Origin: Methylomonas sp. 11b | Lineage (GTDB): Bacteria; Pseudomonadota; Gammaproteobacteria; Methylococcales; Methylomonadaceae | Direction of reading: 5' to 3' | DNA: 64,000 bases | Assembly: GCF_000515215.1 (NCBI RefSeq) | Contig: NZ_KI911557.1 | Location: 3,839,741 to 3,903,740 of the forward strand | Shown: positions 40,959 to 59,965 of the stretch, piece by piece | How positions within the stretch are numbered: position 1 is the stretch's first letter | How the letters are laid out: each line of letters begins with the position of its first letter | Notes under the pieces: model-generated | What the model saw: only the letters and a program-made list of their open reading frames with translations | Databases searched by the model: none | What the model was told of the DNA's origin: nothing | Position numbers and translations under genes: made by a program

Positions 40959-41051
40959 TTTTACATTCTCTTTATAAGCAAGCTACTGATTTTTACGATC
41001 TTTTTATTCGTCTTTCTGTAAATTAAGCAACATGCAATTAAGGACAATTGC
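40959..41051 (+). promoter_or_regulatory. Kdp-type promoter, copy 1 (putative KdpE site)
   Basis: The 93 bp block contains TTTTACATTCTCTTTATA, then TTTTTACGATCTTTTTAT, a possible -10 TGTAAA at 41017 and a transcribed-side element GGACAATTGC. Each element sits at the same offset as in the kdpFABC promoter at 41748 (offsets 0, 33, 57, 83). E. coli KdpE binds a comparable T-rich sequence, so KdpE control is inferred. An 8 bp inverted repeat TTAAGCAA/TTGCTTAA (41023 and 41048) follows the -10. Confidence 0.65.
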
Positions 41052-41146
41052 TTAAATCGGTGAAGGGATACGTTTTATATTTTACTAACTGCTATCGATG
41101 AACATTGTGTTCTATTATCGACGGCGGTGGTCCTTTAGGGGGCAAA

Positions 41147-41308
41147 ATGAACAAATCGAACAATTTATACAGAGACATTTTTACCGGCATTACCTTTACA
41201 GCGGGTATGTTTGTGTTTATGTCCGACGAATTCATTGTTTCTACCATGCTGTTTTGTCTGGCTAGCATCTCCAGTAACCTCGATTTCGGTTCATCGCTCC
41301 GCGCTTGA
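41147..41308 (+). CDS. Orphan 53 aa membrane protein behind a Kdp-type promoter
   Basis: The 53 residue protein has one or two hydrophobic segments (IFTGITFTAGMFVFM and FIVSTMLFCLASI). A strong AGGGGG ribosome-binding site like that of kdpF precedes it. Its upstream region duplicates the kdp leader. I do not recognise a family. Its position, equivalent to kdpF, suggests a small membrane regulator or stabiliser responding to potassium limitation. No homologous structural gene follows: 41309-41681 contains no ORF I can support. Confidence 0.5.
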   Translation: MNKSNNLYRDIFTGITFTAGMFVFMSDEFIVSTMLFCLASISSNLDFGSSLRA

Positions 41309-41681
41309 CGTCTAGTCATGCTCAACATCCTTAACCCTTAGGTAATGCCATTTTGTAACAGCATTGCCGCAGCAAGCTTTCTCGTAATCAGTTCATTGAA
41401 GGCTATTTTAATAGGCGGGACCAGATCACTTAGCAGAGCGCCTTATTAACTTTCAAAAATAGGTCTTGCGAGTGAATATCGTTTTTTTGCTATTCATGGC
41501 AGCAGTTAGGGCGTGACAGCGTTGGGGATGATCACGTAAACATCACAACAATTCACAGGTTATTGATGGTGGTCTGGTTTGATCACAAACTACTTTTCAA
41601 CTGGAACACACGTTTCAGGTTCCTGATTTCATGTTGGCTCCTGCTTGTCGGTCAGCAGCAACACTGCGGATTGACCTCTGC

Positions 41682-41710
41682 CCCTTTTCCTAGATGAAGG
41701 GTTTTTTTTT
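41682..41710 (+). terminator. Hairpin with long T run upstream of the kdp promoter
   Basis: CCCTT (41682) pairs with AAGGG (41697), followed by nine Ts. It would end the transcript of the 53 aa ORF and insulate the kdp promoter 38 bp further on. Confidence 0.6.
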
Positions 41711-41747
41711 GTCCTGAAAATCTGTCCACGGTTTCGGCTACTTTTAT

Positions 41748-41840
41748 TTTTATATTTCCTTTATATCGGGCATGGATATTTTTACGACTTTTTTATCGAT
41801 CAATCTGTACATTGTTTAACTGGTGATCAGGGACGATTGC
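41748..41840 (+). promoter_or_regulatory. kdpFABC promoter, copy 2 of the Kdp-type block
   Basis: TTTTATATTTCCTTTATA is followed by TTTTTACGACTTTTTTAT, a possible -10 TGTACA at 41806 and GGACGATTGC ending at 41840. The T-rich core resembles the KdpE operator upstream of E. coli kdpFABC. It lies about 40-130 bp before the first small ORF of the operon. Confidence 0.75.
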
Positions 41841-41878
41841 AAGATTGAGTTTTTTCATTTTTTCAAGAGGTCATGTAG

Positions 41879-41971
41879 ATGGACATGGTGTATTTGCTGT
41901 TAACAGCGGCGTTCTTTGTCGCGACGGCGTTATTGATCGCTGGTTGCGAAGCATTAAGGGGGCAATCATGA
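41879..41971 (+). CDS. Small leader membrane ORF of the kdp operon, 30 aa
   Basis: [20 protein letters not shown] begins a 30 residue peptide with one hydrophobic helix and the polar end CEALRGQS. A similar short ORF precedes kdpF in many kdp operons. Its TGA overlaps the kdpF ATG (ATGA), so kdpF translation is coupled to it. AGAGG lies upstream of the start. Its function is not established. It may stabilise the complex or act as a translated leader. Confidence 0.65.
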
Positions 41972-42057
41972 GCTGGATTTATCTTTTGAGCGGAGGACTG
42001 ACTCTTGCTGTGTTCGTCTATTTACTGGTCGCGTTGTTTTATCCGGAGAAATTCTGA
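41968..42057 (+). CDS. kdpF: Potassium-transporting ATPase small subunit KdpF
   Basis: The 29 aa single-helix peptide ([20 protein letters not shown] then VALFYPEKF) ends with the family's YPE(K/R)F signature. It stabilises the KdpFABC complex in the inner membrane. A strong AAGGGGG site precedes it. Its stop overlaps the kdpA start by one base (TGATG). Confidence 0.95.
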
Positions 42058-43865
42058 TGACTGGTCAAGGTTTTTTACAGATTGCTATTTACGTCATCGC
42101 CCTGGTGGCGCTGGCCAAGCCTTTGGGCACTTATATGGCGCGGGTTTATCAAGACGAGTCGGTGGGATTGAACCGTTGGTTCGCCGGTATTGAGCGACTG
42201 TTCTATCGCCTCAGTGGCGTCAAGCCGGATCAGGAGATGCGTTGGACCCAATATGCGCTGGCGATGCTGGCGTTCAATCTGTTTGGTTTGTTGGCGGTTT
42301 ATTGCTTACAACGTTTCCAAGACGTGTTGCCGCTAAACCCCCAAACGCTGCCGGCCGTGACGCCGGACTCATCGTTTAACACTGCCGTCAGCTTCGCCAC
42401 CAACACCAACTGGCAAGGCTACAGCGGCGAAGCCACGATGAGTTATCTGACCCAGATGCTGGGTTTGTCGGTACAAAACTTCGTTTCCGCCGCCAGCGGC
42501 ATGGCGGTACTGGTGGCTCTGATTCGTGGCTTCGTGCGCCGTAACAGTAACAGCATCGGTAACTTCTGGGTGGATATGACGCGCAGTACTTTATACATCC
42601 TGCTACCGTTGTCGTTGGTGTTGGCGCTGGTATTGGTCGGACAAGGCGTGGTGCAAACGTTTAATCCCTACCAAACGGTTAATTTGCAAGAAACAGTCAG
42701 CTACTCGGCGCCGAAACTGGATGCTGACGGTAAGGCATTGCTGGATGCCGAGGGCAAGCCGGTGACTGAAACGTTGCAAACGCAACAACAAACCCTGGCA
42801 TTGGGACCTGCTGCATCGCAAATCGCGATTAAACAATTGGGTACCAATGGTGGCGGTTTCTTCAACGTCAACTCCGCCCATCCGTATGAAAATCCCACAC
42901 CGCTTTCCAATTTTCTGGAAATGCTGGCTATTCTGCTGATTCCGGCTGCGCTGTGCTACACCTTCGGGCTGATGGTGGGAGACACTCGCCAGGGCTGGAC
43001 GATATTGGGTGCCATGACGCTGGTGTTAGTCGCCTTGATCTTTGTCACTGTACCGGCCGAGCAAAGCGGCAACCCGGCGTTAACTGCCTTGGGTGTTGAT
43101 CAAACTGTATCGGCACAGCAGCCCGGCGGCAATATGGAGGGCAAAGAAGCGCGCTTCGGCATCGTCAACTCCGGGTTATGGGCGGTGGCGACCACCGCTG
43201 CCTCGAACGGTTCGGTCAACTCCATGCATGATTCATACACGCCAATCGGTGGCATGGTACCCATGTGGCTGATGCAATTGGGTGAAGTGATCTTTGGCGG
43301 CGTCGGTTCAGGCCTGTACGGCATGATCGTATTTGCCATCGTCGCGGTGTTTATCGCCGGCTTGATGATAGGCCGCACCCCGGAGTACCTGGGTAAAAAG
43401 ATCGAAGCCTATGAGATGAAAATGGCCGCCATCATTATTCTGATACCCCCTTTGATGGTATTGGGCGGTACCGCAGTGACACTGGTGATGGACGCCGGCA
43501 AAGCGTCCATCTTCAACCCCGGCGCCCATGGTTTCAGCGAAGTGTTGTACGCCTACTCCTCGGCGGGCAATAACAACGGCAGTGCCTTCGGCGGTCTGTC
43601 AGCCAACGTACCGTTCTACAACTTCATGCTGGGTCTGGCGATGCTGTTCTCTCGCTATTGGTTGATGATTCCGGTATTGGCGATTGCCGGCTCTCTGGCG
43701 GCCAAAAAGACTGTGCCGGTTGGTCCCGGTACGCTGCCGACTCATACCCCATTGTTTGCCGTTTTATTGATCATCACTGTGTTGATGGTCGGCGCACTGA
43801 CCTTCGTCCCGGCATTGGCCTTGGGGCCTATCGTCGAGCATTTGCAAATGATCGGTCATCAATAA
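42057..43865 (+). CDS. kdpA: Potassium-transporting ATPase subunit KdpA
   Basis: The 602 aa channel-like subunit selects and binds K+ with high affinity. About ten transmembrane helices and the four selectivity-filter-like repeats are present: [32 protein letters not shown] in pieces, [15 protein letters not shown] and [13 protein letters not shown]. Length is slightly above the E. coli subunit owing to an insertion at about 205-235 (hydrophilic, Gln-rich). Confidence 0.98.
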
Positions 43866-43884
43866 TTTCAGGACAGGTAACCCT

Positions 43885-45984
43885 ATGACTAGCAAGCCCG
43901 TTTCAACATCCTTAATGGATCCGCAAATTTTGCAACAAGCGTTCATAGACGCTTTTGCCAAACTCACGCCCAAGCAGCAATGGAAAAACCCGGTCATGTT
44001 CGTAGTCTATCTCGGCAGTTTGCTCACCACGGTATTGTGGTTGCAGGCGCTGACGGGTGAAAGCGAAGAATCCGCCGGTTTTATCCTCAGCATCACGCTG
44101 TGGCTGTGGTTCACGGTATTGTTCGCCAATTTCGCCGAAGCGGTGGCGGAAGGCCGCAGCAAGGCTCAAGCCGCGTTCCTGCGTAGCGCCAAACGCGACA
44201 TCGCTGCCAAAAAGCTTGATGAACCGAAATACGGTAGCAATTACAGTAAAGTCGAAGGCTCCAGTCTTCGCAAAGGGGATGTAGTGCTGATCGAAGCCGG
44301 AGACTTTGTGCCCGGCGACGGTGAAGTCATCGAAGGCGTGGCCTCGGTCGACGAAAGCGCCATTACCGGCGAAAGCGCGCCGGTGATCCGCGAATCCGGC
44401 GGCGACTTCAGTTCGGTGACCGGCGGCACCAGGGTGCTGTCCGATTGGCTGGTGGTGAGCATCACCACCAATCCCGGCGAGACCTTCCTCGACCGCATGA
44501 TAGGTATGGTGGAAAGCGCCAAAAGGCAAAAAACCCCCAATGAGATTGCTTTGACCATTTTGTTAGTGGCGTTAACACTGGTGTTTTTGATGGCGACCGT
44601 CACCTTGCTGCCGTTTTCCTTGTATAGCGTGCAAACCGCTGGTACCGGCAACCCGATCAGCGTCACGGTGTTGGTGGCTTTATTGGTGTGTTTGATTCCA
44701 ACCACCATCGGCGGTTTATTGTCTGCCATTGGCGTGGCCGGTATCGGCCGGATGATGCAGAAAAATGTCATCGCAACCTCTGGCCGGGCCGTGGAAGCGG
44801 CCGGCGACGTCGATGTACTGCTGCTGGACAAAACCGGTACCATCACCTTGGGTAACCGCCAAGCATCGGGTTTCTTTCCCGTCAAAGGCGTCAAGGAAGC
44901 CGAATTGGCTGACGCCGCACAATTGGCTTCGATGGCCGACGAAACCCCGGAAGGCCGTAGCGTGGTGATCTTGGCCAAGCAAAAATACGGCATTCGCGAA
45001 CGCGATATTCACTCCTTAGGGGCCACTTTCGTGCATTTCAGCGCCCAAACCCGGATGAGCGGCGTCAATTTACCCGGAGAGGAATGCAAAATCGGCGAGC
45101 CTTGCCGGCAAATCCGTAAGGGTGCGGCTGACTCGATAAGACAACATATCGAAGATCAAGGCGGCAAATTTCCGCCGGAATTGAAAACGCTGGTCGACGA
45201 CGTAGCTCGGCGCGGCAGTACGCCGTTAGTGGTGGCGGACGGTATAAAAGCCTTAGGTGTGATCGAACTGAAAGACATCGTCAAGGGGGGCATCAAGGAG
45301 CGCTTCATCGAACTACGGCAGATGGGCATCAAGACCATCATGATCACCGGCGACAACCGTTTGACCGCTGCCGCCATCGCCGCCGAAGCCGGTGTCGATG
45401 ACTTCCTGGCCGAAGCTACGCCGGAAGCCAAACTCAGCCTGATTCGCCAGCACCAAGCCGATGGCCGTCTGGTGGCGATGACCGGCGACGGCACCAACGA
45501 CGCCCCGGCTTTGGCGCAGGCCGACGTCGCGGTAGCGATGAACAGCGGCACCCAGGCCGCCAAGGAAGCCGGCAACATGGTCGATCTGGATTCCAATCCG
45601 ACTAAGCTGATCGAAATCGTCGAAACCGGCAAACAAATGCTGATGACCCGTGGCGCATTAACCACGTTTAGTATTGCCAACGACGTCGCCAAATATTTTG
45701 CGATCATTCCGGCGGCCTTCGCCACCACCTATCCGGTCTTGAATGTATTGAACGTGATGGGCTTGGCGACGCCGGCCAGCGCCATCCTGTCGGCGGTGAT
45801 TTTCAATGCATTGATCATCATCGCCCTGATTCCATTGGCTTTGAAAGGTATCAAATATCAACCCGTCGGCGCGGAAAAGCTCCTGCAAAACAACTTGCTG
45901 GTCTATGGCGTCGGCGGCTTGATTGTGCCGTTTATCGGTATCAAGGCGATTGATTTAGTCTTGGTTGCTATGAATTTGGTGTAA
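43885..45984 (+). CDS. kdpB: Potassium-transporting ATPase ATP-binding subunit KdpB
   Basis: This 699 aa P-type ATPase energises K+ uptake. The actuator motif TGES lies at 161-164. The phosphorylation site is [10 protein letters not shown] with Asp315. The hinge is [20 protein letters not shown]. The transmembrane layout is that of type IA pumps. It lies 20 bp downstream of kdpA with GGACAGG as ribosome-binding site. Confidence 0.98.
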
Positions 45985-45993
45985 GGAACGAAT

Positions 45994-46572
45994 ATGTTTA
46001 CCTATTTAAAACCCGCAGCGATGATGTTATTCCTCTTGACCCTGGTCACCGGCGCCGCTTATCCGGCCCTGGTCACGGTCTTGGCCCAAATGCTGTTTAA
46101 CGATCAAGCTAACGGCAGTTTGATCCAGGATGACAAAGGCCAACTGATTGGTTCGGAACTGATCGGCCAAACCTTTAGCGGGCCGAAATACTTCTGGAGC
46201 CGCCCGTCGGCGACCGGGCCCTACAGTTACAACGCCGCTGCCTCCAGCGGCTCCAACCTGGGGCCGACCAATCCGGCGTTGACCGACGCCGTCGCGGCCC
46301 GTATTCAAGCCTTGAAAGAGGCCGATCCTGACAATAAAGCGCCGGTGCCGGTGGATTTGATTACCGCCTCCGGCAGCGGCCTCGATCCACACATCAGCAT
46401 CGCCGCAGCGGAATACCAGATTAAACGTATCGCCAAGGTCCGCAAAATCGATACAGCGAAGCTACAGGCACTTGTTGATGCTCACACCGAAGGGCGGCAA
46501 TGGCTGGTGTTTGGCGAACCTAGAGTCAACGTCTTGAAATTGAATCTGGCGTTGGATAGAGCGGGCCGCTAA
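45994..46572 (+). CDS. kdpC: Potassium-transporting ATPase subunit KdpC
   Basis: The 192 aa accessory subunit has one N-terminal membrane helix and a periplasmic domain. The conserved motifs are GSELIGQTFSGPKYFWSRPSAT and the DPHIS region SGSGLDPHISIAAAEYQ. It ends the structural operon. The 222 bp before the IS element contain no gene I can support. kdpD, which normally follows, is displaced by about 6.2 kb. Confidence 0.97.
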   Translation: MFTYLKPAAMMLFLLTLVTGAAYPALVTVLAQMLFNDQANGSLIQDDKGQLIGSELIGQTFSGPKYFWSRPSATGPYSYNAAASSGSNLGPTNPALTDAVAARIQALKEADPDNKAPVPVDLITASGSGLDPHISIAAAEYQIKRIAKVRKIDTAKLQALVDAHTEGRQWLVFGEPRVNVLKLNLALDRAGR

Positions 46573-46794
46573 TTGAAAATATGATTGGGGCATGAGTAAC
46601 ATCGACATATGAGTGCATTTGGTAATCCTCAACCGGTATCAATGTCTGCATCCTGGCGTTCTCGAAGAGCTGCGCGTACTACCTTAGCCAGAAAACCTAT
46701 TCGATATGTTACGAAATGCAAACGCGCGGCGAAGCTGAATGATCCGTCCAATTCGATTTGGCGAATGGACAAATCGTCGCGTTCACTAGCTTGA

Positions 46795-48130
46795 GAGGGT
46801 GTAAGAATTTTTGTGTAAACGGCCCTGAGGTAGGAAACTACCGATCCTGACAAGGAGGAAACCATGACCGTATCATCAAAAGCCATACCGGATGACCTAC
46901 TCGACGCCTTGATGTCGCACTATCAAAAACCCGAGGACCTGATCGGTGCCAATGGTCTGCTGAAGCAGTTGACCAAAGCGATAGTCGAACGGGCCCTGGA
47001 AGCGGAAATGACCGCGCACTTGGGCCACGGTAAGCATGAGGCGGTGACCAACGCCAGCAGCAATGCCCGAAACGGCAAAAGCCGGAAAACGCTGAAAGGT
47101 GACTTCGGCGACTTGCCTATCGAGATTCCCCGCGACCGTCATGGCGAATTCGAACCGCAGATCATTCCTAAGCATCAACGGCGCTGGACCGGTTTCGACG
47201 ATAAGATCATTTCGTTATATGCCCGAGGACTGACGGTACGGGAAATCCAAGCCCATTTATTCGAGCTTTACGGCACCGAGGTATCCCCCACCTTGATTTC
47301 CTCGGTGACCGACGCGGTACTCGAAGAGGTGGGCGTCTGGCAAAGCCGCCCGCTGGATCCGATTTACCCGATTGTGTACCTCGACTGTCTGCATACCAAA
47401 GTGCGCGATAGTGGCAGCGTGCGGGTCAAGGCCGTCTATCTGGCCATCGGTGTCAATCTGGACGGCCACAAAGAAGTGCTGGGGCTGTGGATTGCCCAAA
47501 GCGAAGGCGCCAAATTTTGGTTGCAAGTGGTCACCGAGCTCAAGAACCGTGGCGTCAACGACATCTTTATCGCCTGTGTCGATGGTCTGAAGGGATTTCC
47601 GGAGGCTATCGAAACCGTGTTTCCCAAAGCGGCCGTTCAACTGTGTATTGTCCACTTGGTCCGTCATAGCCTCAACTATGTCAGCTACAAAAGGCGCCAG
47701 TCGGTTGCCGACGACCTCAAGCAGATTTATCGAGCCGCAACGGCGAGGGAAGCCGAGCAAAAGCTGACCGAATTCGAGGCCAACTGGCTGGAGACCTATC
47801 CCACGATCGCCCCCATCTGGCGACGAAACTGGGGGCACATCATCCCTTTTTTTGACTATCCGCCCGAGATTCGCAAGGTGATCTACACCACCAATACCAT
47901 CGAATCGGTGAATCGAAGTCTGAGAAAAATCATGAAAAACCGCGCGGTCTTCCCCAGTGATGACGCCTTGTCCAAACTGCTCTATTTGGCGTTGCGCAAT
48001 ATCAGCCAAAATTGGACCATGCCCGTCTACGATTGGAAAGCCGCTTTGAATCGGTTTAGTATTCAGTTCGAAGATCGCTTCCCTAGCCATTAAACCAAAC
48101 TACCGTTTACACAAAATTTGGGACACTCCC
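46795..48130 (+). mobile_element. IS256-family insertion sequence
   Basis: Imperfect 28 bp terminal inverted repeats at 46795-46822 and 48103-48130 agree at 22 of 28 positions and share the inner end TTTTGTGTAAACGG. They bracket a single intact transposase. The element is about 1.34 kb, normal for IS256. No clear 8-9 bp target duplication is visible (TAGCTTGA on the left, ATTTAAGC on the right). This suggests an old insertion or later rearrangement of one flank. Confidence 0.88.
46864..48093 (+). CDS. IS256-family DDE transposase
   Basis: The 409 aa Mutator-type transposase is full length. The family pattern is clear: RNGKSRKTLKGDFGDLPIEIPRD, IISLYARGLTVREIQAHL, then the catalytic Asp region YLDCLHTKVRD. 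FIACVDGLKGFPEAIETVFP and the glutamate region TTNTIESVNRSLRK follow. AGGAGG lies just before the ATG. No frameshift is seen, so it may be active. Confidence 0.95.
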   Translation: MTVSSKAIPDDLLDALMSHYQKPEDLIGANGLLKQLTKAIVERALEAEMTAHLGHGKHEAVTNASSNARNGKSRKTLKGDFGDLPIEIPRDRHGEFEPQIIPKHQRRWTGFDDKIISLYARGLTVREIQAHLFELYGTEVSPTLISSVTDAVLEEVGVWQSRPLDPIYPIVYLDCLHTKVRDSGSVRVKAVYLAIGVNLDGHKEVLGLWIAQSEGAKFWLQVVTELKNRGVNDIFIACVDGLKGFPEAIETVFPKAAVQLCIVHLVRHSLNYVSYKRRQSVADDLKQIYRAATAREAEQKLTEFEANWLETYPTIAPIWRRNWGHIIPFFDYPPEIRKVIYTTNTIESVNRSLRKIMKNRAVFPSDDALSKLLYLALRNISQNWTMPVYDWKAALNRFSIQFEDRFPSH

Positions 48131-48648
48131 ATTTAAGCTCGCGCATGCGGTCTTTGTGCTATCGCAGTAAAGCTTTTTACCTTGCCCGCAAGCCTGCAAA
48201 GCCCTGCGGCAACGCGTTTTGGTTTGCGTCCAAGCGAGCGAAACTTTAGCGAATAGCAAAATGCGACTAGCGCGAGGCTTCAAGGCCTGTGGTTGAGGGG
48301 AGAAGCCTTATCCCTTAGAAAATCAGGCCCGGCACTGTCCAACCGTCCCGGAATTGCATGTGATCGATCAATGTATTGCTGGCAGACTTACGTGGCTATC
48401 GGCCAAAACCCGACCGTCGAGAGCAGCATCCAATTTAAATAGTTAGGTCATTCTAAGACCCAGTTGACTGTCCGCTATTCGGCGAGCAAATTGAGATTAT
48501 CACTACCTCATCCGGACCATAGCTGACCACTACGCTTCGACCGTTAATGGCGACGATGAATGAATACCGGACATTAATCAGCTATTATTAATGCTTAACT
48601 ACAAGGCCTAAACCTTACAATTACACCAGTCTATTACTTGCGAGAAGT
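48131..48648. other. Gene-free stretch right of the IS element
   Basis: No supported ORF, tRNA or clear repeat in about 520 bp. An ATTAAT...ATTAAT inverted pair (about 48571-48590) near the downstream gene may belong to its promoter region. The stretch could be decayed accessory DNA. Confidence 0.4.
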
Positions 48649-49602
48649 ATGACATCCATTGATTTTAAAAATGCGTTTTATATCAAGCTAGGTCAAGGCG
48701 GTGATTGGGAAGCCAAAAGTTTGCCCGACAACAAACTCAGATTCGGTTGGGAAGAACAGACAGTTGATGACATCAATTCCAGAAGCTGGGAAAGGATAGA
48801 AAATCAGCTTCGTTCTGCACATAAAGGGCCGCAAGGCGGGGCCACTCGCGCGCTAAACGGATTGCGCCGCATTGTTGAATCCGACGAGACGGATATTTGG
48901 ATCACGTTTTCCCAAAACAAGCTTTGGTGGACCCGAGTCGAACAGTCTTCACCAGTGGAAAAGGACGATACTTCGAAGTTCCGAAAAGTCCAAGGCTGGA
49001 GTGATAAGAATGCGAGCGGAGCAACTCTTTTCACCAATGGTTTACCTGGTCGATTGGCAATGCTGCAAGGATACAGGTGGACAACCTGTGCTGTAAAGGA
49101 TGAACAAATTCCGCTTTTGCGTAACCTTCTGAACAATACGCCGGGCAACTTGGCTGAATCAATTCGTTTACACCGGTTAGCGTTGGAGAACAGTTTGATC
49201 TTTGCCATCAAAGAATTGCATTGGAAGGATTTTGAAACATTCGTTGATTTGATTTTTCGAAACGCTGGTTGGTTGCGAGTGAGTATTTTGGGCCAACATG
49301 AGAAAGCCTATGACATTGCTCTTGTAGAGCCCATTACAGGTGACCGTTACGTTGTACAGATCAAATCACAAGCAGGATTGGCGGACTTAAAGAAACTAGA
49401 AGAAAGCTTTTCCGACCAAGACTATCGATATATTTATTTTGCGGTGCATTCGCCAGCCAAGGATCTGGAATCCGTCTCCAATATTCCGAACCATATTAAG
49501 TTTTTAAGCGTGAACAAATTGGCCGAAATGGCCGTAAAAGCCGGATTGGTGACTTGGCTGCAAGAAAAGGTTTTTTCGGTAAGCCGTTCGTTTAGCCCAT
49601 AG
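48649..49602 (+). CDS. PD-(D/E)XK-type (Mrr-like) nuclease, putative defence gene
   Basis: The 317 aa protein has two parts. Residues 1-150 form an unassigned domain (DWEAKSLPDNKLRFGWEEQT, then WITFSQNKLWWTRVE) that could be a modified-base or nucleotide reader. Residues about 185-295 look like an Mrr-type restriction endonuclease fold: Glu196 in DFETFVDLIF, Asp222 in AYDIALVEP, and the QIK motif (Gln237, Lys239) in RYVVQIKSQAG. A modification-dependent restriction enzyme or other defence nuclease is inferred. No methylase is adjacent. Codon use appears more AT-rich than in the kdp genes. Confidence 0.6.
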   Translation: MTSIDFKNAFYIKLGQGGDWEAKSLPDNKLRFGWEEQTVDDINSRSWERIENQLRSAHKGPQGGATRALNGLRRIVESDETDIWITFSQNKLWWTRVEQSSPVEKDDTSKFRKVQGWSDKNASGATLFTNGLPGRLAMLQGYRWTTCAVKDEQIPLLRNLLNNTPGNLAESIRLHRLALENSLIFAIKELHWKDFETFVDLIFRNAGWLRVSILGQHEKAYDIALVEPITGDRYVVQIKSQAGLADLKKLEESFSDQDYRYIYFAVHSPAKDLESVSNIPNHIKFLSVNKLAEMAVKAGLVTWLQEKVFSVSRSFSP

Positions 49603-49764
49603 ACTGGATTTCACTTAGGTTTGCCCAGGCTACGGCTAAACATTAGACTTGTCGGTGTTGATTGAATGGCGGCGATAAGACTATTACCGGCCATTATTTC
49701 AGCCGCCATCCACCGGAGTATAGGCGGCGCAGCTCCGGCTTTCTATTTACGATAAAGGGGAAAC

Positions 49765-51054
49765 GTGGGTACAGAGATCACGCTCGATGTGGCCGGGGTA
49801 TCGGTCACGTACAGCAAGAACCATCGTGGAATTGATCATGGCTCTATTTTTCAGGAAAAAGATCGAAAAGCGATAGAAAGTAACCAGCTCAACTACGATT
49901 GGTATCGAGAGAATGGTGAAGACCCAACTCTTTCCGAGATGGCTTTCATGCGTCCGCTTAAGCATGTAGCTCCGCGCCTCGAACTGCTAGGCTTCAATCT
50001 GGAACGCGTCCGCCGAGAATATGATGCCGTCGCGAAAGGCTGGCTAGAGGAGAGGCCGTCTTTTCAAGATGATGAGCCCATTCCTGACCTGATGAGCTTT
50101 GCGGAGTTTTGCAAATTTGTTACCTCACACCCGCTCGATAGTCTCGACGACACCTTTATCATGGGTACGGACAGCGCAAGCGAAAAGATGATCCGAGGCC
50201 GATTTGATGGAATGCAGTTTGAGCGAATTCCCGCCTACCGTTCTTATGACAACGACGCATATTCGGAGCGAAGCTTTTTCGGCGGGTTGGTAGGCATCCT
50301 TCACCCGTATTCGGTCCTGCGCGTCTTGGCGGAGGCGAACGAGGACGCTCCTGTTGTTTGGCAATATGGGCCGTTGGTGGAGGCTGGGTGGGCGACAGAG
50401 AGGGAGTTCGTGCCTCACGCCCGGCGAACCGAGACATTCCTGATCGCTACCGAAGGCAGCTCGGACGTCCATATCTTAAAACATGCGCTCGCGCTGCTGC
50501 GGCCTGGGATCGCGGATTTCTTTCGCTTCATCGACGTTAGCGAAAGCCATCCATTTTCGGGTACAGGCAGCCTAGTTAAGTTCGCTGAAGGGCTCGCTAA
50601 GATAGACGTCCAGAACCAGCTGATTTTCGTATTTGACAATGACGCTGAGGGGCTCGATGCCCATCAGCGTCTGTCTACGCTCACTATGCCAGCGAACATG
50701 CGTGGGATCATGTTGCCCGAACTCGAGGAATTCCGCCAATTTCCGGCGCAAGGACCCGAGGGACTCCGCGACTCGGATATAAACCGGCGCGCGGCGGCAA
50801 TTGAGTGCTATCTCGACCTCAAGGTCGGCGACCACCCACCAGCCAAAGTGCTCTGGACCAACTACAAAAAAAGCTTAGACACCTATCAGGGGGCGCTCGA
50901 ATACAAGGAGTCCTATAGCAAGGAGTTCTTGAAACAAACTTCTGTAACTTTGGCCGAAGGTGTGTATGACGTTAGTAAGATCGAGTCAGTACTCGATCTG
51001 CTCGTCGCTGAATGTACAGCAATAGCTGTAGATCAATGGGATCCAAATATGTAG
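49765..51054 (+). CDS. HEPN/TOPRIM-associated domain protein, putative defence gene
   Basis: The 429 aa protein starts with GTG behind GGGG. Its N-terminal 95 residues (MGTEITLDVAGVSVTYSKN) resemble the HEPN/Toprim N-terminal domain. A TOPRIM-like nucleotidyl fold follows at about 222-330, with the acidic glutamate in FLIATEGSSDVHILKHAL (Glu230) and the DxD motif in FVFDNDAEGLDAH (Asp291, Asp293). TOPRIM domains of this kind occur in OLD-like and other phage-defence nucleases. It lies 162 bp after the nuclease gene on the same strand. Whether the two act together is inference. Confidence 0.65.
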   Translation: MGTEITLDVAGVSVTYSKNHRGIDHGSIFQEKDRKAIESNQLNYDWYRENGEDPTLSEMAFMRPLKHVAPRLELLGFNLERVRREYDAVAKGWLEERPSFQDDEPIPDLMSFAEFCKFVTSHPLDSLDDTFIMGTDSASEKMIRGRFDGMQFERIPAYRSYDNDAYSERSFFGGLVGILHPYSVLRVLAEANEDAPVVWQYGPLVEAGWATEREFVPHARRTETFLIATEGSSDVHILKHALALLRPGIADFFRFIDVSESHPFSGTGSLVKFAEGLAKIDVQNQLIFVFDNDAEGLDAHQRLSTLTMPANMRGIMLPELEEFRQFPAQGPEGLRDSDINRRAAAIECYLDLKVGDHPPAKVLWTNYKKSLDTYQGALEYKESYSKEFLKQTSVTLAEGVYDVSKIESVLDLLVAECTAIAVDQWDPNM

Positions 51055-51593
51055 ATGAGTTGGTCATCACACCTTGGAAAGAAAGCGTTAGCTGGCTAAG
51101 TAAGGATACGACGCCACAGTTGAGCTTTGTCACTGAATGGCAGCTAGCCGTGATCTCGCAGCCATACAGTTTAAATATTGAATGCCGCCAAGTGGCCGAT
51201 AGGTTGAGGCCACTAACGTCTGCTTTATGGTCCAGCAGTTCGAAGAATCTGTATTTCACTGAATGACCGCTTTGGAGAAACTCGATAGACGGGTTTGGGT
51301 CGATGGGAGCCAATCAATAACATTTTGTTTATCCCCCATGCAATCTTCCCCACGCTATTTCGGATAACTTTTCCCGTTGCATTCAACATAACTTAGGGGG
51401 CGTTTTAACTGGAATATCCCTCCAACATGTTTGCATAAAGAGGCGATTACATTGAGGGTCACTCAGCTGATGCATGCGCTGTTTCGAGGGCCGTTGATTA
51501 TTGCTGGTAGCACTGAGCCAATTAGCCCGTAGTTTCCAAAACCCTCCCGCCGTTATTCCCGAGATCATTGAATTCAGCATTCATCCCGCGAAT
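51055..51593. other. Gene-free stretch right of the TOPRIM gene
   Basis: Short open frames exist on both strands but none has a recognisable product or good ribosome-binding site. This is likely the right flank of the accessory insert before native kdp sequence resumes. Confidence 0.4.
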
Positions 51594-51660
51594 TTTTATA
51601 TTTTCTTTATGTTTATGCTTTGAATATTAACGACCTTTTTACGAGCTTTTTCATAAACTG
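51594..51660 (+). promoter_or_regulatory. Kdp-type promoter, copy 3, ahead of the channel-kdpDE group
   Basis: TTTTATATTTTCTTTATG is followed at the same offset as in copies 1 and 2 by ATTAACGACCTTTTTACG. CATAAA at 51652 lies at the -10 offset. The resemblance stops before the GGACRATTGC element. It lies 29 bp before the 51689 ORF, and would make kdpDE autoregulated if KdpE binds it. Confidence 0.65.
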
Positions 51661-51688: not shown

Positions 51689-52057
51689 ATGAACGAGCGA
51701 AGTTACGTTGGTATCGACAACACGGATAAAAACGAGTGGATAGTGGTTTTGTGGTGCGAGGGGAAAAGCATTTTTTCCAGACCGTACGGGCATACTCCCG
51801 CCGAACTCGAAGCCTTGGTGCGCTTCATTAACGAACGTTGCGACAGGCCGAAAATCTGTTTGAACCCGACGAATCCGCATGCTTTCGAAGTGGTGAAATA
51901 TATCAGCGGTATCGCTGGCGTCGAAGTGGTGTTGATGTCCAATGCCGGTTTAAGACTGCACCTGGATTGGTTGCCAACAGAATCGACAGCGCCCGTGTTT
52001 CAGGCGAATTCGCGTCGCGCTTATCTGCTGGCCTGCTGCGCCGAACGCATGATTTGA
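51689..52057 (+). CDS. RNase H-fold-like protein resembling the N-terminus of IS110 transposases
   Basis: The 122 aa protein opens YVGIDNTDKNEWIVVLWCEG, the beta-strand/Asp pattern of the RuvC/RNase H-like domain of IS110 transposases. It lacks the rest of a transposase (about 300 aa in total). CAGGGG precedes the ATG and a Kdp-type promoter lies just upstream, so it looks expressed. It may be a transposase remnant or a domesticated domain. It lies 48 bp before the potassium channel gene. Confidence 0.5.
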   Translation: MNERSYVGIDNTDKNEWIVVLWCEGKSIFSRPYGHTPAELEALVRFINERCDRPKICLNPTNPHAFEVVKYISGIAGVEVVLMSNAGLRLHLDWLPTESTAPVFQANSRRAYLLACCAERMI

Positions 52058-55522: not shown

Positions 55523-56221
55523 ATGGCTAAAACCGATCCTGTCATTATTGTCATAGAGGACGATCCCTCCATTCGGCGTTTTCTGCGCACCAGTCTCAGT
55601 ACTCACGGCTTTAACGTATTTGATGCCGATACCGGCAAACGAGGTATCGTCGAGGTTGGTGTGCGCAAGCCCGACTTACTGATACTCGATCTGGGGTTGC
55701 CGGATATGGATGGTGTCGAGGTGATCAAAGCTATTCGCGCCTGGTCAGCCGTGCCCATCATCATATTGTCGGCGCGGAGCAGCGAACAGCAGAAGATCGA
55801 CGCCTTGGATGTCGGGGCCGACGATTATTTGACCAAACCGTTCGGTTTTGGCGAATTGTTAGCCAGGATACGCGTGGCGCTGCGGCATGCGAGCAGGCCG
55901 CAGGAACAAAGTCAGTCTGATGTGTTCAGCACCGGCAATCTGAAAGTGGACCTACTCAATCGCGTGGTCAGTGTCGATGACCAAGAAATTCACCTCACCC
56001 CGATTCAATACCGCTTGCTAACGGTCTTGGTTAAAAATGCCGGCAAAGTCCTGACCCATCAGCAAATCCTTAAGGACGTCTGGGGGCCTTCTTTCGAGGA
56101 GAACGCCCATTATCTGCGCATCTACATGAGTCAACTCCGCCAGAAACTGGAAGCAGACCCCACCCAGCCAAAATTGTTACTGACTGAGTCCGGTGTCGGT
56201 TATCGACTGAAAGTCTCGTAA
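55523..56221 (+). CDS. kdpE: Response regulator KdpE
   Basis: The 232 aa OmpR/PhoB-type regulator has a receiver domain with acidic pair EDDP and phospho-acceptor Asp in LLILDLGLPDMDG, then KPFGFGELLARI. The winged-helix DNA-binding domain (about 135-230) has LTPIQYRLLTVLVKNAGKVLTHQQIL. It lies 24 bp after kdpD. It is the likely binder of the T-rich promoter blocks at 40959, 41748 and 51594. Confidence 0.97.
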   Translation: MAKTDPVIIVIEDDPSIRRFLRTSLSTHGFNVFDADTGKRGIVEVGVRKPDLLILDLGLPDMDGVEVIKAIRAWSAVPIIILSARSSEQQKIDALDVGADDYLTKPFGFGELLARIRVALRHASRPQEQSQSDVFSTGNLKVDLLNRVVSVDDQEIHLTPIQYRLLTVLVKNAGKVLTHQQILKDVWGPSFEENAHYLRIYMSQLRQKLEADPTQPKLLLTESGVGYRLKVS

Positions 56222-56246: not shown

Positions 56247-57206
56247 ATGCAACTATTGAACGGCTCCGTTGTAGCCCTGGTTACCCCTTTTCATGGCGAT
56301 AACGACCAATCCGTCAACCGGGAAAAACTTGTCGAATTAATCGAGTTCCACGCCATCAGTGGCACGGTGGCCATCGTTCCTTGCGGCACGACCGGCGAGT
56401 CGCCGACTTTGTCGGACGACGAGTGGGAAACTGTGGTGTCGACAACAATCGAAGCCGCCCGGTCTACCTCTCTCAAAATCATTCCGGGCACCGGTTCGAA
56501 CAGTACCCGAGAAGCCGTGCGACGGACCGAGCAAGCCGCCAAGTTAGGTGCAGATGCTTGCCTGGTTGTCACGCCGTATTACAACCGGCCTAGCCCGGAG
56601 GGGATACTGGCGCATTATCAAGAACTGGATAAAGTGGGTCTTCCCATCATTCTTTACGATATTCCCAGCCGAACCGGTGTCGAGTTGGGCGTCGAGCTGA
56701 TCATGGCGCTTTGCGAAAAATGCCCGTCTATTATCGGATTAAAAGCTTCTAATGGTAATCTCGATCAAATCACCGAAATTGTCTACCGGTCTTATCAACT
56801 TGACCGGCCTTTCTCGGTGTTTTCCGGCGACGACTCGCTGACTTTGCCGATTCTTGCGGTGGGTGGCGTGGGCGTCATTTCCGTGGCGGCCAACGTGATG
56901 CCTAGCGTGATGAACGAACTGGTCGCCAGTTTCGAGCGCCGGGAACTAAATCAATCGAAATTTATTGCGCAAGCCAGTCATGGTTTTTGCCGGGCATTGT
57001 TAAAGTCAGGGTCGAATCCCGCACCCATTAAAGCCATCATGAATCATTTGGGTCTTAATGTGGGTGGATGCCGCTTACCTTTGTCCGGCATTAGCAATGA
57101 GAAGATGGCGGCACTGTTGCACGAACTTCAGATCATGACTGCAAAACTCACTGCCCCACATATTCCCATCGATGACATCCTGATAAAAGGCCAAAAGCTA
57201 CCGTGA
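56247..57206 (+). CDS. dapA: 4-Hydroxy-tetrahydrodipicolinate synthase
   Basis: The enzyme condenses pyruvate and aspartate semialdehyde in lysine/diaminopimelate synthesis. The TIM-barrel motifs are GTTGESPTLSDDE, VVTPYYNRPSPEG, and the Schiff-base lysine in IIGLKASNGN. YDIPSRTG precedes it. The 319 aa length exceeds the usual 290-300 aa because of a C-terminal extension after residue 295. Placement 25 bp after kdpE is unusual. It may be co-transcribed with kdpDE, and a second dapA elsewhere is possible. A DapA-family aldolase of another substrate cannot be excluded. Confidence 0.87.
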   Translation: MQLLNGSVVALVTPFHGDNDQSVNREKLVELIEFHAISGTVAIVPCGTTGESPTLSDDEWETVVSTTIEAARSTSLKIIPGTGSNSTREAVRRTEQAAKLGADACLVVTPYYNRPSPEGILAHYQELDKVGLPIILYDIPSRTGVELGVELIMALCEKCPSIIGLKASNGNLDQITEIVYRSYQLDRPFSVFSGDDSLTLPILAVGGVGVISVAANVMPSVMNELVASFERRELNQSKFIAQASHGFCRALLKSGSNPAPIKAIMNHLGLNVGGCRLPLSGISNEKMAALLHELQIMTAKLTAPHIPIDDILIKGQKLP

Positions 57207-57213
57207 AAGAACC

Positions 57214-57861
57214 ATGATTGTGGAAGTAGATGAATACATCAAATTGCTTGCGGGACTCTTGTCGGTAGTGGACCCTATCGGCGCTATCCCGCTTTTCATC
57301 AGCTTGACCGATCACCGCAGCTCTGAGGAGAGGCGACGTATCGCCTGCGTTTGTGCTTTGTCGGTTGGCGCGGTACTGCTATTTGCACACACTGCCGGCA
57401 ATAGTTGGCTGGCATTTTTTGGGATCAGCATTCCGTCGTTTCAAATTGCCGGTGGCATAGTCATCATGTTAATGGGCGTTTCCATGGTCAAAGCGTCGCA
57501 TGATCGATCCAGAAACACGCCGGAGGAACGGGCCGAGTCTGTCGATAAAGAGTCTATCGCGGTCGTGCCAATGGCCATTCCCTTGCTCAGTGGGCCCGGC
57601 GCAATGAGTACCGTGATCGTCAACCATAACCTAAATCCGTCCTGGAATTATGACGTCTTGGCCGTTTGCGTCATCGCCACCATAGCCTTGATCGTTCTGA
57701 CATGCTTGTTAATGGCCGAGAAAATAGCCCATTTGCTGGGCAGAACCGGCATGAATGTAATTACACGGGTTTTTGGATTGATCATTTTGTCGATAGCCGT
57801 GGAGTTTATTACTAAAGGATTAGGCGCTGTTTTCCCGATATTGGTGAAACCGTTGGCGTAA
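57214..57861 (+). CDS. MarC family integral membrane protein
   Basis: The 215 aa protein with six hydrophobic segments matches MarC/NAAT: LLSVVDPIGAIPLFISLTDH at the N-terminus and VPMAIPLLSGPGAMSTVIV in the middle. The family includes putative amino-acid or antimicrobial-related transporters without firm function. It starts 7 bp after dapA, so the two are likely co-transcribed. Confidence 0.9.
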   Translation: MIVEVDEYIKLLAGLLSVVDPIGAIPLFISLTDHRSSEERRRIACVCALSVGAVLLFAHTAGNSWLAFFGISIPSFQIAGGIVIMLMGVSMVKASHDRSRNTPEERAESVDKESIAVVPMAIPLLSGPGAMSTVIVNHNLNPSWNYDVLAVCVIATIALIVLTCLLMAEKIAHLLGRTGMNVITRVFGLIILSIAVEFITKGLGAVFPILVKPLA

Positions 57862-57911
57862 CCGCAGCCAAATACTGATTCAAAACTAGCAATTTGAGCG
57901 TCAGAATCGAA

Positions 57912-57969
57912 AATTTCCGAGTTTACAGGGCAAATTTTTACAATTTTTTTAGATGAAATTGCGTATAGT
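57912..57969 (+). promoter_or_regulatory. Possible Kdp-type promoter of kup
   Basis: TTTTTACAATTTTTTTA (57935-57951) matches the kdp core TTTTTACGACTTTTTTA at 15 of 17 positions. TATAGT at 57964 lies in the -10 position relative to it. The upstream ATTTCC...TTTACA half is present but spaced differently from the three kdp-type copies. KdpE control of kup is therefore only a weak inference. Confidence 0.4.
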
Positions 57970-58087
57970 CGCGCGCTTTTCCTGGTAAGACTCGGGTTTG
58001 CTAAACCAATTGTTTCGAGCCTTTCATTTGATTCAGATCCAAAAACGGTCTGCTTGATTTTCTCCTGATCTACACAGGTTTTTTGTA

Positions 58088-59965
58088 ATGTCTGCCGACA
58101 ATAAATCTCAACCATTAACCGGATTAACGCTGAGCGCGATAGGTGTCGTCTTTGGCGATATAGGCACCAGCCCCCTATACGCCGTTAAGGAAGTCTTTCA
58201 TGCCGGATTAACGACGGATACCACCCATATTCTTGGCGCGCTTTCGCTGATCTTTTGGTCACTGACGCTAGTCGTCACCACCAAATACGCGATTTTCATC
58301 ATGCGCGCCGACAACAAGGGCGAAGGCGGTATCATGGCTTTGCTGGCTTTGGCCCTTCAAACTGCCAAGGACAATCCGCAAAAAACCCGTTTCATCGTCA
58401 CTACCGGCTTGATTGGCGCGGTGCTGTTTTATGGCGACAGCATTATCACACCGGCTATATCGGTGTTGAGCGCGGTGGAAGGGCTGCAAATCATCGCGCC
58501 AAAGCTGGAACATTACGTGTTGCCGATAACCTTTGCGGTATTGGGGGGCTTGTTTTTGATTCAAGCCAGGGGCACCGAGGCGGTCGGCAAATTGTTTGCG
58601 CCTATCATGTGTGTTTGGTTTGCGGTCTTAGCGATCATGGGCCTAGTCAATATTGTCCAGCAACCTGAAGTATTACAGGCTATCAATCCTTATTACGCGA
58701 TTAGTCTATTAGGTGAATTGGGTTGGAAAGGATTTTTAATCATGGGCTCGGTGGTGTTGGCCATTACCGGTGCCGAAGCGCTGTATGCCGACATGGGCCA
58801 TTTTGGTTTAAAGCCGATTCGGTATGCCTGGTTTAGTTTTGTGTTTCCTGCCCTGCTACTCAATTACTTCGGACAAGGGGCGCTGTTGATGGGCCATCCT
58901 GACGCGATTGAAAACCCGTTCTATCTGCTCGCGCCAAACTGGGCTCTTTACCCTTTGTTAATTCTGTCGACATTGGCTACGGTGATTGCCTCGCAAGCCG
59001 TTATTTCCGGGGCGTTTTCGTTGACTAGACAGGCTATCCAGTTGGGCTATTCGCCACGCATGAATATTCTGCATACCTCGGGTGACGAAATGGGCCAAAT
59101 CTATATTCCAGCCGTGAACTGGTTGTTGATGGCATCGGTATTTATTCTGGTAGCCGGTTTTAAATCATCCACCGCATTGGCTTCTGCCTATGGCTTGGCG
59201 GTAACGGGCACGATGATTACTACCACGATACTGGCGTTTATCGTCATTTCGGAATTGTGGCGGTGGAATAAAGTCACCAGTATCAACTTTCTGTCAATTT
59301 TTTTGACCCTGGATATTTTATATTTCTTGGCCAACACGCTGAAAATACCCGAGGGCGGTTGGTTGCCTTTGACCGTGGGTGTCGTATTGTTCCTGATCAT
59401 GACCACCTGGATTAAAGGTCGCGAGTTACTGGCCAGAAACATGGATGAAAAACGGGTGATGTTTGAAGAACTGGAAGACAAAGTTCAGGGCCAGAAGCTA
59501 GCCAAAGTGCCCGGTACCGCAATTTATTTAGCCAAAAATCTACACGGCGTACCGCAAGTGCTGCTACACAATTTGGCACACAATCATGCGCTGCATGAGC
59601 AAATGATTGTGCTGACGATAGTCACCAAAGACGAGCCGTACGTCGATGAGTCTCACCGTATCAAAATTCGCGCTTTCGGTGACGAGGGCAATTTTTATAG
59701 GGTGAAGATGTATTTCGGCTTTCAGGAAGAACAGGACGTGCGTCGCGCACTCCAGCTATGCAGCCATGAGGGACTGGTAATTGATCAAAAAGCTGCATCG
59801 TTTTTCATCGGTAACGAGAGAATATCGTTTCGCCGGAGAAGCCCCATGCCGAAATGGCGCAGGGCGCTATTTAGATTCTTGCTCCACAACGCATCCAGCG
59901 CTATCGAATATTTCAAAATTCCGGTCGAACGCGTAATTGAGGTAGGTATTCGCCTTGAGTTGTAA
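58088..59965 (+). CDS. kup: Potassium uptake protein Kup
   Basis: The 625 aa low-affinity K+/H+ symporter of the KUP/HAK family has about 12 transmembrane helices in the first 440 residues. It opens with the signature GVVFGDIGTSPLYAVKEVF. GDSIITPAISVLSAVEGL is also conserved. The C-terminal cytoplasmic domain (about 450-625) is normal in length. It adds a constitutive-type K+ system to the inducible Kdp system encoded upstream. It is monocistronic. The 59966-60195 stretch downstream is empty. Confidence 0.97.
   Translation: MSADNKSQPLTGLTLSAIGVVFGDIGTSPLYAVKEVFHAGLTTDTTHILGALSLIFWSLTLVVTTKYAIFIMRADNKGEGGIMALLALALQTAKDNPQKTRFIVTTGLIGAVLFYGDSIITPAISVLSAVEGLQIIAPKLEHYVLPITFAVLGGLFLIQARGTEAVGKLFAPIMCVWFAVLAIMGLVNIVQQPEVLQAINPYYAISLLGELGWKGFLIMGSVVLAITGAEALYADMGHFGLKPIRYAWFSFVFPALLLNYFGQGALLMGHPDAIENPFYLLAPNWALYPLLILSTLATVIASQAVISGAFSLTRQAIQLGYSPRMNILHTSGDEMGQIYIPAVNWLLMASVFILVAGFKSSTALASAYGLAVTGTMITTTILAFIVISELWRWNKVTSINFLSIFLTLDILYFLANTLKIPEGGWLPLTVGVVLFLIMTTWIKGRELLARNMDEKRVMFEELEDKVQGQKLAKVPGTAIYLAKNLHGVPQVLLHNLAHNHALHEQMIVLTIVTKDEPYVDESHRIKIRAFGDEGNFYRVKMYFGFQEEQDVRRALQLCSHEGLVIDQKAASFFIGNERISFRRRSPMPKWRRALFRFLLHNASSAIEYFKIPVERVIEVGIRLEL

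Follow-up and report, generated by a model that had tools for sequence, protein, structure and literature searches.

The element described here is a paired direct repeat found at three promoters in the potassium-transport locus of Methylomonas sp. 11b. The window, meaning the whole 64,000-nucleotide stretch of contig NZ_KI911557.1 that was analysed, contains three T-rich blocks, at 40959, 41748 and 51594. The first lies ahead of a gene for a small hydrophobic protein (orf53), the second ahead of kdpFABC, which encodes the Kdp potassium pump, and the third ahead of a group that encodes a small RuvC-type domain (p122), an ion-channel protein and the two-component pair KdpD and KdpE. The three blocks are very likely KdpE-activated promoters of a single potassium regulon, each with two operators, and KdpE is the best candidate regulator of these predicted promoters. 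The layout of the element, its specificity and its conservation are observed directly. Shared control by KdpE had been proposed in an initial annotation of the sequence; this proposal is supported by the operator layout, by conserved residues of KdpE, by the restriction of the paired element to genomes with kdpA, and by its recurrence ahead of kdp, orf53 and p122 genes.

Layout of the three promoter blocks

All three blocks are present as the initial annotation described them. Each carries a 17-bp sequence common to all, TTTAYA-N5-TTTATR, in which two half-sites of the form TTTA(T/C)A/R are 5 bp apart (box I). The E. coli KdpE operator, TTTATA-N5-TTTACA, was defined by alignment, truncation and base changes (PMC3264566), and the likeness to that T-rich operator, already pointed out for these blocks, lies in the operator sequence and not in T-richness alone. 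The downstream core shared by the blocks is a second, weaker 6-5-6 repeat (box II), which starts 32 bp from the start of box I (+32) in all three copies. A -10-like element of the form TANNNT is found in every block, as had been claimed, and always exactly 10 bp past box II. The components, with the -10-like elements predicted from sequence, are:

40960..40976, + strand: block 1 box I, TTTACA-N5-TTTATA, a putative KdpE-type operator
40992..41008, + strand: block 1 box II, TTTACG-N5-TTTATT
41019..41024, + strand: block 1 predicted -10-like element, TAAATT
41749..41765, + strand: block 2 box I, TTTATA-N5-TTTATA
41781..41797, + strand: block 2 box II, TTTACG-N5-TTTATC
41808..41813, + strand: block 2 predicted -10-like element, TACATT
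51595..51611, + strand: block 3 box I, TTTATA-N5-TTTATG
51627..51643, + strand: block 3 box II, TTAACG-N5-TTTACG
51654..51659, + strand: block 3 predicted -10-like element, TAAACT

Two details of the core differ from the earlier description, which gave it one sequence and an offset of 33 bp. TTTACG does lie at 33, but TTACGA lies 34 bases from the block start; and the core as given holds for copies 1 and 2, whereas copy 3 reads TAACGACCTTTTTA, with one mismatch. The elements CTGTA (offset 57) and GGACRATTGC (offset 83) are exact in copies 1 and 2, as reported. These two copies are identical at 60 positions over 93 bp, and copy 3 agrees with either at 48. None of the three promoters was listed by a sigma-70 scan, which returned fewer sites than shuffled sequence (10 versus 15.6).

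The KdpE encoded in the window matches E. coli KdpE (4kny) at 1.4e-82 and keeps R193, R200 and T215 in the alignment to that structure (numbering by hand count). Changing each of these residues to alanine abolishes binding and induction by E. coli KdpE (PMC3264566). Structures of the E. coli protein for comparison are 4kny, 4kfc and 3zq7.

Specificity and conservation of the paired element

The single box, TTTAYAN5TTTAYR, is matched nine times in the genome of 5,412,720 bases, and three of these matches lie here, within 11 kb. Since the reversed pattern is matched 15 times across the genome, what is rare is the clustering and not the single box as such. The composite (box I, a 15-bp spacer and box II, with at most two mismatches) is matched exactly three times in this genome, once at each block, and the reversed composite never. 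None of the six other exact single-box places is a composite, and no kdp relative was found at the five of these that were examined (L001-L004, L008). A genome scan with box II and the -10 alone recovered blocks 1 and 2 at zero mismatches, missed block 3, and gave four places at three mismatches (L081-L084). The latter were not counted, as they have no kdp relative; L084 shows weak kinase similarity (about 29%).

A scan of Methylomonas genomes, which the initial annotation had named as a check, yielded 32 composite matches in 23 of 37 genomes, and none with the reversed pattern. With the spacer set to 16 bp there is no match in this genome and one in the 37 genomes, equal to the one match of the reversed control. 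The gene kdpA is present in 31 of the 37; the composite occurs in 23 of these and in none of the six without kdpA (Fisher p 0.0013), so that in the genus it is found only where kdp genes occur. The matches sit ahead of kdp genes (22), orf53 (five, in G000, G107, G125, G133 and G134), p122 (three, in G000, G133 and G134) and nhaD (two, in G127 and G133). At both nhaD composites (L112, G133:C5, 1501-3045; L095, G127:C154) the nhaD Na+/H+ antiporter gene is divergent from a gene for a KdpD-like kinase, from which the N-terminal KdpD/Usp part is apparently missing. This pair is possibly a second KdpDE-like circuit, for sodium.

Across the family, kdpA was matched in 47 other genomes, from which 40 kdp loci were taken. 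Within 400 bp upstream, 23 of these loci have an exact box, and the best one has one mismatch in eight and two in the remaining nine, in a scan without a control; at least one best match, that at L052, looks like chance. Among 25 p122 loci (L117-L141), a box with one mismatch or none lies within 250 bp upstream in 21, compared with three for the reversed pattern and a shuffle mean of 0.46. When the stretch downstream of the box is scored against eight core letters of box II, +32 is the best offset in these 21 loci (6.05 of 8), with at least six matches in 13 of them.

A wider search used 77 of 80 named loci, L175, L230 and L232 having been dropped because kdpA lies too close to the end of the contig. 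Within 450 bp, 37 of the 77 have a box with no more than one mismatch, and 3 of 77 do in reversed sequence. The 45 loci from outside Methylococcales were chosen by title as Beta- or Gammaproteobacteria and include two from Nitrospira/Nitrospirae (L182, L211); 33 of them have such a box. In these 33, +32 tops all offsets with a mean core score of 5.70 of 8, compared with 1.79 overall; when the downstream stretch was shuffled 1000 times, no offset reached a mean above 3.03. At least six core letters match at +32 in 20 of the 33, or in 20 of 31 without L182 and L211, each of which scores 2 of 8. Several of the 33 are Burkholderia that are near relatives; 31 distinct box II sequences occur in the set.

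Genes behind the promoters

The genes and other features of the locus are as follows:

41034..41051, + strand: possible leader hairpin of orf53, with a 6-bp stem and a 6-nucleotide loop, its right arm within GGACRATTGC
41147..41308, + strand: orf53, a 53-amino-acid hydrophobic protein of a family with 10 matches in this genome
41682..41701, + strand: terminator-like stem and T run between orf53 and block 2
41823..41840, + strand: possible leader hairpin of the kdp copy, with two G-U pairs
41879..41968, + strand: 30-amino-acid hydrophobic open reading frame directly ahead of kdpF, also in many family kdp loci
41968..42057, + strand: kdpF (24.2 bits, just below the NCBIfam cut-off of 26.85)
42057..43865, + strand: kdpA
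43885..45984, + strand: kdpB
45994..46572, + strand: kdpC
51689..52057, + strand: p122, a stand-alone IS110-type RuvC (DEDD) domain of 122 amino acids
52106..52636, + strand: ion-channel protein (PF07885) of 176 amino acids
52757..55498, + strand: kdpD (Pfam KdpD 322.4 bits; NCBIfam equivalog 1036 bits, below the cut-off of 1123)
55523..56221, + strand: kdpE (NCBIfam equivalog 319.5 bits, cut-off 325; best PDB match 4kny, KdpE)

Block 1 precedes the 53-residue gene, as annotated, but the gene is not the orphan it was taken for, being one of a family of ten here. The family has 2 to 10 matches per genome across the 37 genus genomes, and orf53 itself matches nothing in Pfam or NCBIfam. Only the kdp-linked copy has the composite ahead of it in this genome. 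Block 2 likewise precedes kdpFABC; the short open reading frame in between is possibly a further small Kdp-associated peptide. The channel-kdpDE group does follow block 3, but p122, which had gone unlisted, comes first. The gaps between p122, the channel gene, kdpD and kdpE are, in order, 48, 120 and 24 bp, and the terminator consensus scan, which found 30 sites versus 20.3 in shuffles, places none on the + strand from 51689 up to the kdpD start. A box is lacking within 400 bp of kdpD here (the best candidate has three mismatches), although the kdpD at L074 does have one. Autoregulation of kdpDE therefore rests on read-through from block 3, which is plausible from the sequence.

A leader hairpin is possible downstream of these promoters and is offered as a lead only. 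It was noted in 11 of 31 promoters printed, with G-U pairs and one C-G to U-A change. Covariation is weak: the single two-sided pair change occurs in two related orf53 leaders, and the score was reached by 15 of 500 shuffles, in an alignment of the 11 promoters having the hairpin and one without, so that the count leans towards it.

The region between kdpC and block 3 (46864-51054) encodes an IS256 transposase, an Mrr-type restriction protein and a HEPN/Toprim protein. Its insertion likely parted kdpFABC from p122-channel-kdpDE, because kdpC is near p122 in other genomes (L125, L131, L139). Past kdpE (56247-59965) lie a DHDPS-family gene, a MarC-family membrane protein and a potassium transporter of the Kup (K_trans) family; DHDPS-family and MarC-family genes also adjoin p122 in several relatives.

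The p122 protein as found here appears to be new. Matches to it, full transposases included, occur in 35 of 251 genomes of the order, and 22 members were aligned. PF01548, the IS110 DEDD domain, is matched by 18 of these with E no higher than 1 (best 4.4e-7); the protein in the window scores below the Pfam cut-off (19.1 versus 29 bits). Its structural model has a mean predicted local distance difference test score (pLDDT) of 87.6 and a predicted template modelling score (pTM) of 0.83. The ten best PDB matches of the model are the IS621 and ISCro4 bridge recombinases (8wt6, 8wt9 and 9t56 among them), with E of 2.0e-5 to 2.1e-4 and template modelling (TM) scores of 0.69-0.77 by query length. Both the PF01548 matches and the model place p122 in the RuvC (DEDD) fold. 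The DEDD residues, which we take to be the catalytic ones and which were compared with IS110 proteins of the same order, are incomplete: D10 is kept, the Glu is replaced by N59, and the Asp pair by N107 and R110. The catalytic Glu and last Asp are found in none of the 22 aligned members, and the first Asp is kept in 17. At 118-124 amino acids p122 proteins also lack the full IS110 length of about 330 amino acids and the C-terminal second domain; IS110 relatives in the order have about 333-336.

The setting of p122 also differs from that of IS110/IS621-type bridge recombinases. Kdp genes or the channel gene adjoin p122 in 18 of the 25 loci, where roughly 3 kb per locus was considered and weaker matches, as well as a 28-residue fragment of kdpD in L133, were excluded. 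The ratio of nonsynonymous to synonymous substitution (dN/dS) is below 0.4 in all eight p122 pairs computed (for example, dN 0.076 and dS 0.82 versus G133), so p122 is under purifying selection, and the idea that it is a decaying insertion-sequence remnant was rejected. In a class sample of 274 genomes, with at most 16 candidates scored per genome, at least three match p122 at 1e-8: this genome, one other of the order, and one outside it, where a p122 relative lies directly ahead of kdpF-kdpA genes. As modelled, p122 appears to be a RuvC domain without catalytic activity that the potassium locus has retained, and is probably a domesticated transposase domain in the potassium regulon. The parent IS110/IS621 domain works with bridge RNA, and by analogy it may be guessed that p122 binds RNA or DNA.

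Proposed mechanism, alternatives and known systems

Under potassium limitation KdpD phosphorylates KdpE. Phosphorylated KdpE would then switch on orf53, the kdpFABC pump and p122-channel-kdpDE, and activation of the last by read-through would give positive autoregulation. Each block would present two 17-bp operators, each made of two half-sites 5 bp apart, with starts 32 bp apart, which would put two KdpE dimers on one face of the DNA. Box I would lie where E. coli KdpE leaves its footprint, at about -72 to -50; for block 2, which is likewise ahead of kdpF, this placement depends on the predicted -10-like element. Box II would take the place of the -35, 10 bp ahead of the -10, in the manner of a pho box, in which direct repeats of 11-bp period replace the -35 about 10 bp ahead of the -10. 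A proximal dimer so placed would contact RNA polymerase. In this scheme KdpE binding and activation are predicted from sequence, as are the start sites and any role of p122 or orf53.

Several observations weigh against this reading. The recognition helix of KdpE has two changes here, GH to SQ. The composite is absent, at the threshold used, from 8 of the 31 kdpA-bearing genus genomes, and the two composites ahead of nhaD, next to a KdpD-like kinase, suggest that the motif may also serve a related regulator. In 9 of the 40 family kdp loci no box has fewer than two mismatches, and +32 leads the other offsets by little in the family (4.13 of 8, with 3.90 at +31 and 3.77 at +30; at least six matches in 9 of 31), because many family promoters seem to be single-boxed. 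Outside the order, TANNNT lies 10 bp past the proximal box in just 9 of 35 loci. The analysis of -10 spacing as a whole omitted four p122 loci from genomes already represented. Box II is degenerate, with 6 of 8 core letters matched in E. coli. In M. smegmatis KdpE has an A-rich site, unlike the one here (PMC5401905), which implies that the KdpE motif varies between phyla and is not universal.

The alternative that survives best is that box I alone is the KdpE operator and box II the promoter's own -35 or T-tract, with no second KdpE dimer. The E. coli footprint, cited in PMC3264566, covers the box I position only, and the degeneracy of box II points the same way. However, many family kdp promoters, read by eye, have a single box that sits at the box II position before the -10, with TANNNT 10 bp past the proximal box in 17 of 40 loci and 11 bp past it in 12. 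The 11-bp TTTA repeat is moreover kept in box II at +32 in 20 of the 33 loci outside the order, and both boxes are fully consensus in several p122 promoters (L122, L133, L134, L137, L138, L140). We regard this alternative as unlikely, if a serious one.

Another OmpR/PhoB-type response regulator, such as a partner of the nhaD-side kinase or PhoB, might bind the boxes wholly or in part. Regulators of this type bind direct repeats of 11-bp period, and the composites ahead of nhaD in G127 and G133 lie beside a KdpD-like kinase. The half-site TTTAYA is nevertheless that of KdpE, whereas the PhoB half-site in the pho box is TGTCA(T/C) (PMC3264566). Composites are also confined to kdpA-bearing genomes and in this genome none lies outside the kdp locus, and control by such a regulator appears improbable. 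That the blocks are alike through recent duplication of one promoter segment, without shared control, would fit the identity of copies 1 and 2 at 60 of 93 bp, also outside the boxes, but is highly improbable, since the sequences upstream of the blocks show no relation (2, 6 and 7 of 19 positions identical) and the boxes persist before orf53 in five genus genomes and before p122 in 21 of 25 loci, with proteins down to about 27-40% identity.

Beyond activation of the three promoters by KdpE, a broader reading, on which we are evenly divided, is that proteobacterial kdp promoters, that of E. coli included, are commonly two-operator, with an overlooked KdpE dimer at the -35 that contacts RNA polymerase, and that the Methylococcales regulon captured a catalytically dead p122 as a conserved potassium-starvation protein, which perhaps binds RNA or DNA to regulate how the pump or channel is expressed. 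KdpDE, a textbook two-component system, has been described as acting through one operator. With a second box at a constant 32 bp from the first, which can also be read in K-12, a single site change in a laboratory strain would be enough to test how KdpE makes contact with RNA polymerase. In these bacteria a channel, a small membrane protein and a retired transposase domain join the likely regulon; if the reading is true, p122 would offer a clear example of how a bridge-recombinase domain can be retained to serve the host.

The kdpFABC promoter of E. coli K-12 has the same plan as the blocks, with TTTAYA-N5-TTTAYR ahead of kdpF, a 6-5-6 repeat at +32 and a possible -10 a further 10 bp on; the stretch reads TTTATACTTTTTTTACA, 15 bp, TTTGCGAAATCTTTGCA, 10 bp, TACCCT. 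With TACCCT as the -10, box I would be at about -71 to -55, in agreement with the footprint. Box II of E. coli, TTTGCG-N5-TTTGCA, is weaker than those here. This second repeat is unmentioned in the literature searched, including the parts of PMC3264566, PMC5401905 and PMC7657598 that were covered; older footprint papers lay outside that scope and may have it in print. In E. coli kdpDE follow kdpFABC (PMC7657598), whereas here they stand apart, behind p122 and the channel gene. Three promoters share the element here, while PMC7657598 treats E. coli kdp as a single locus and reports 31 KdpE peaks by chromatin immunoprecipitation with exonuclease digestion (ChIP-exo). The operator and its regulator are thus already known, the arrangement and the regulon members are a variant of the known system, and the +32 rule, E. 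coli included, appears to be new.

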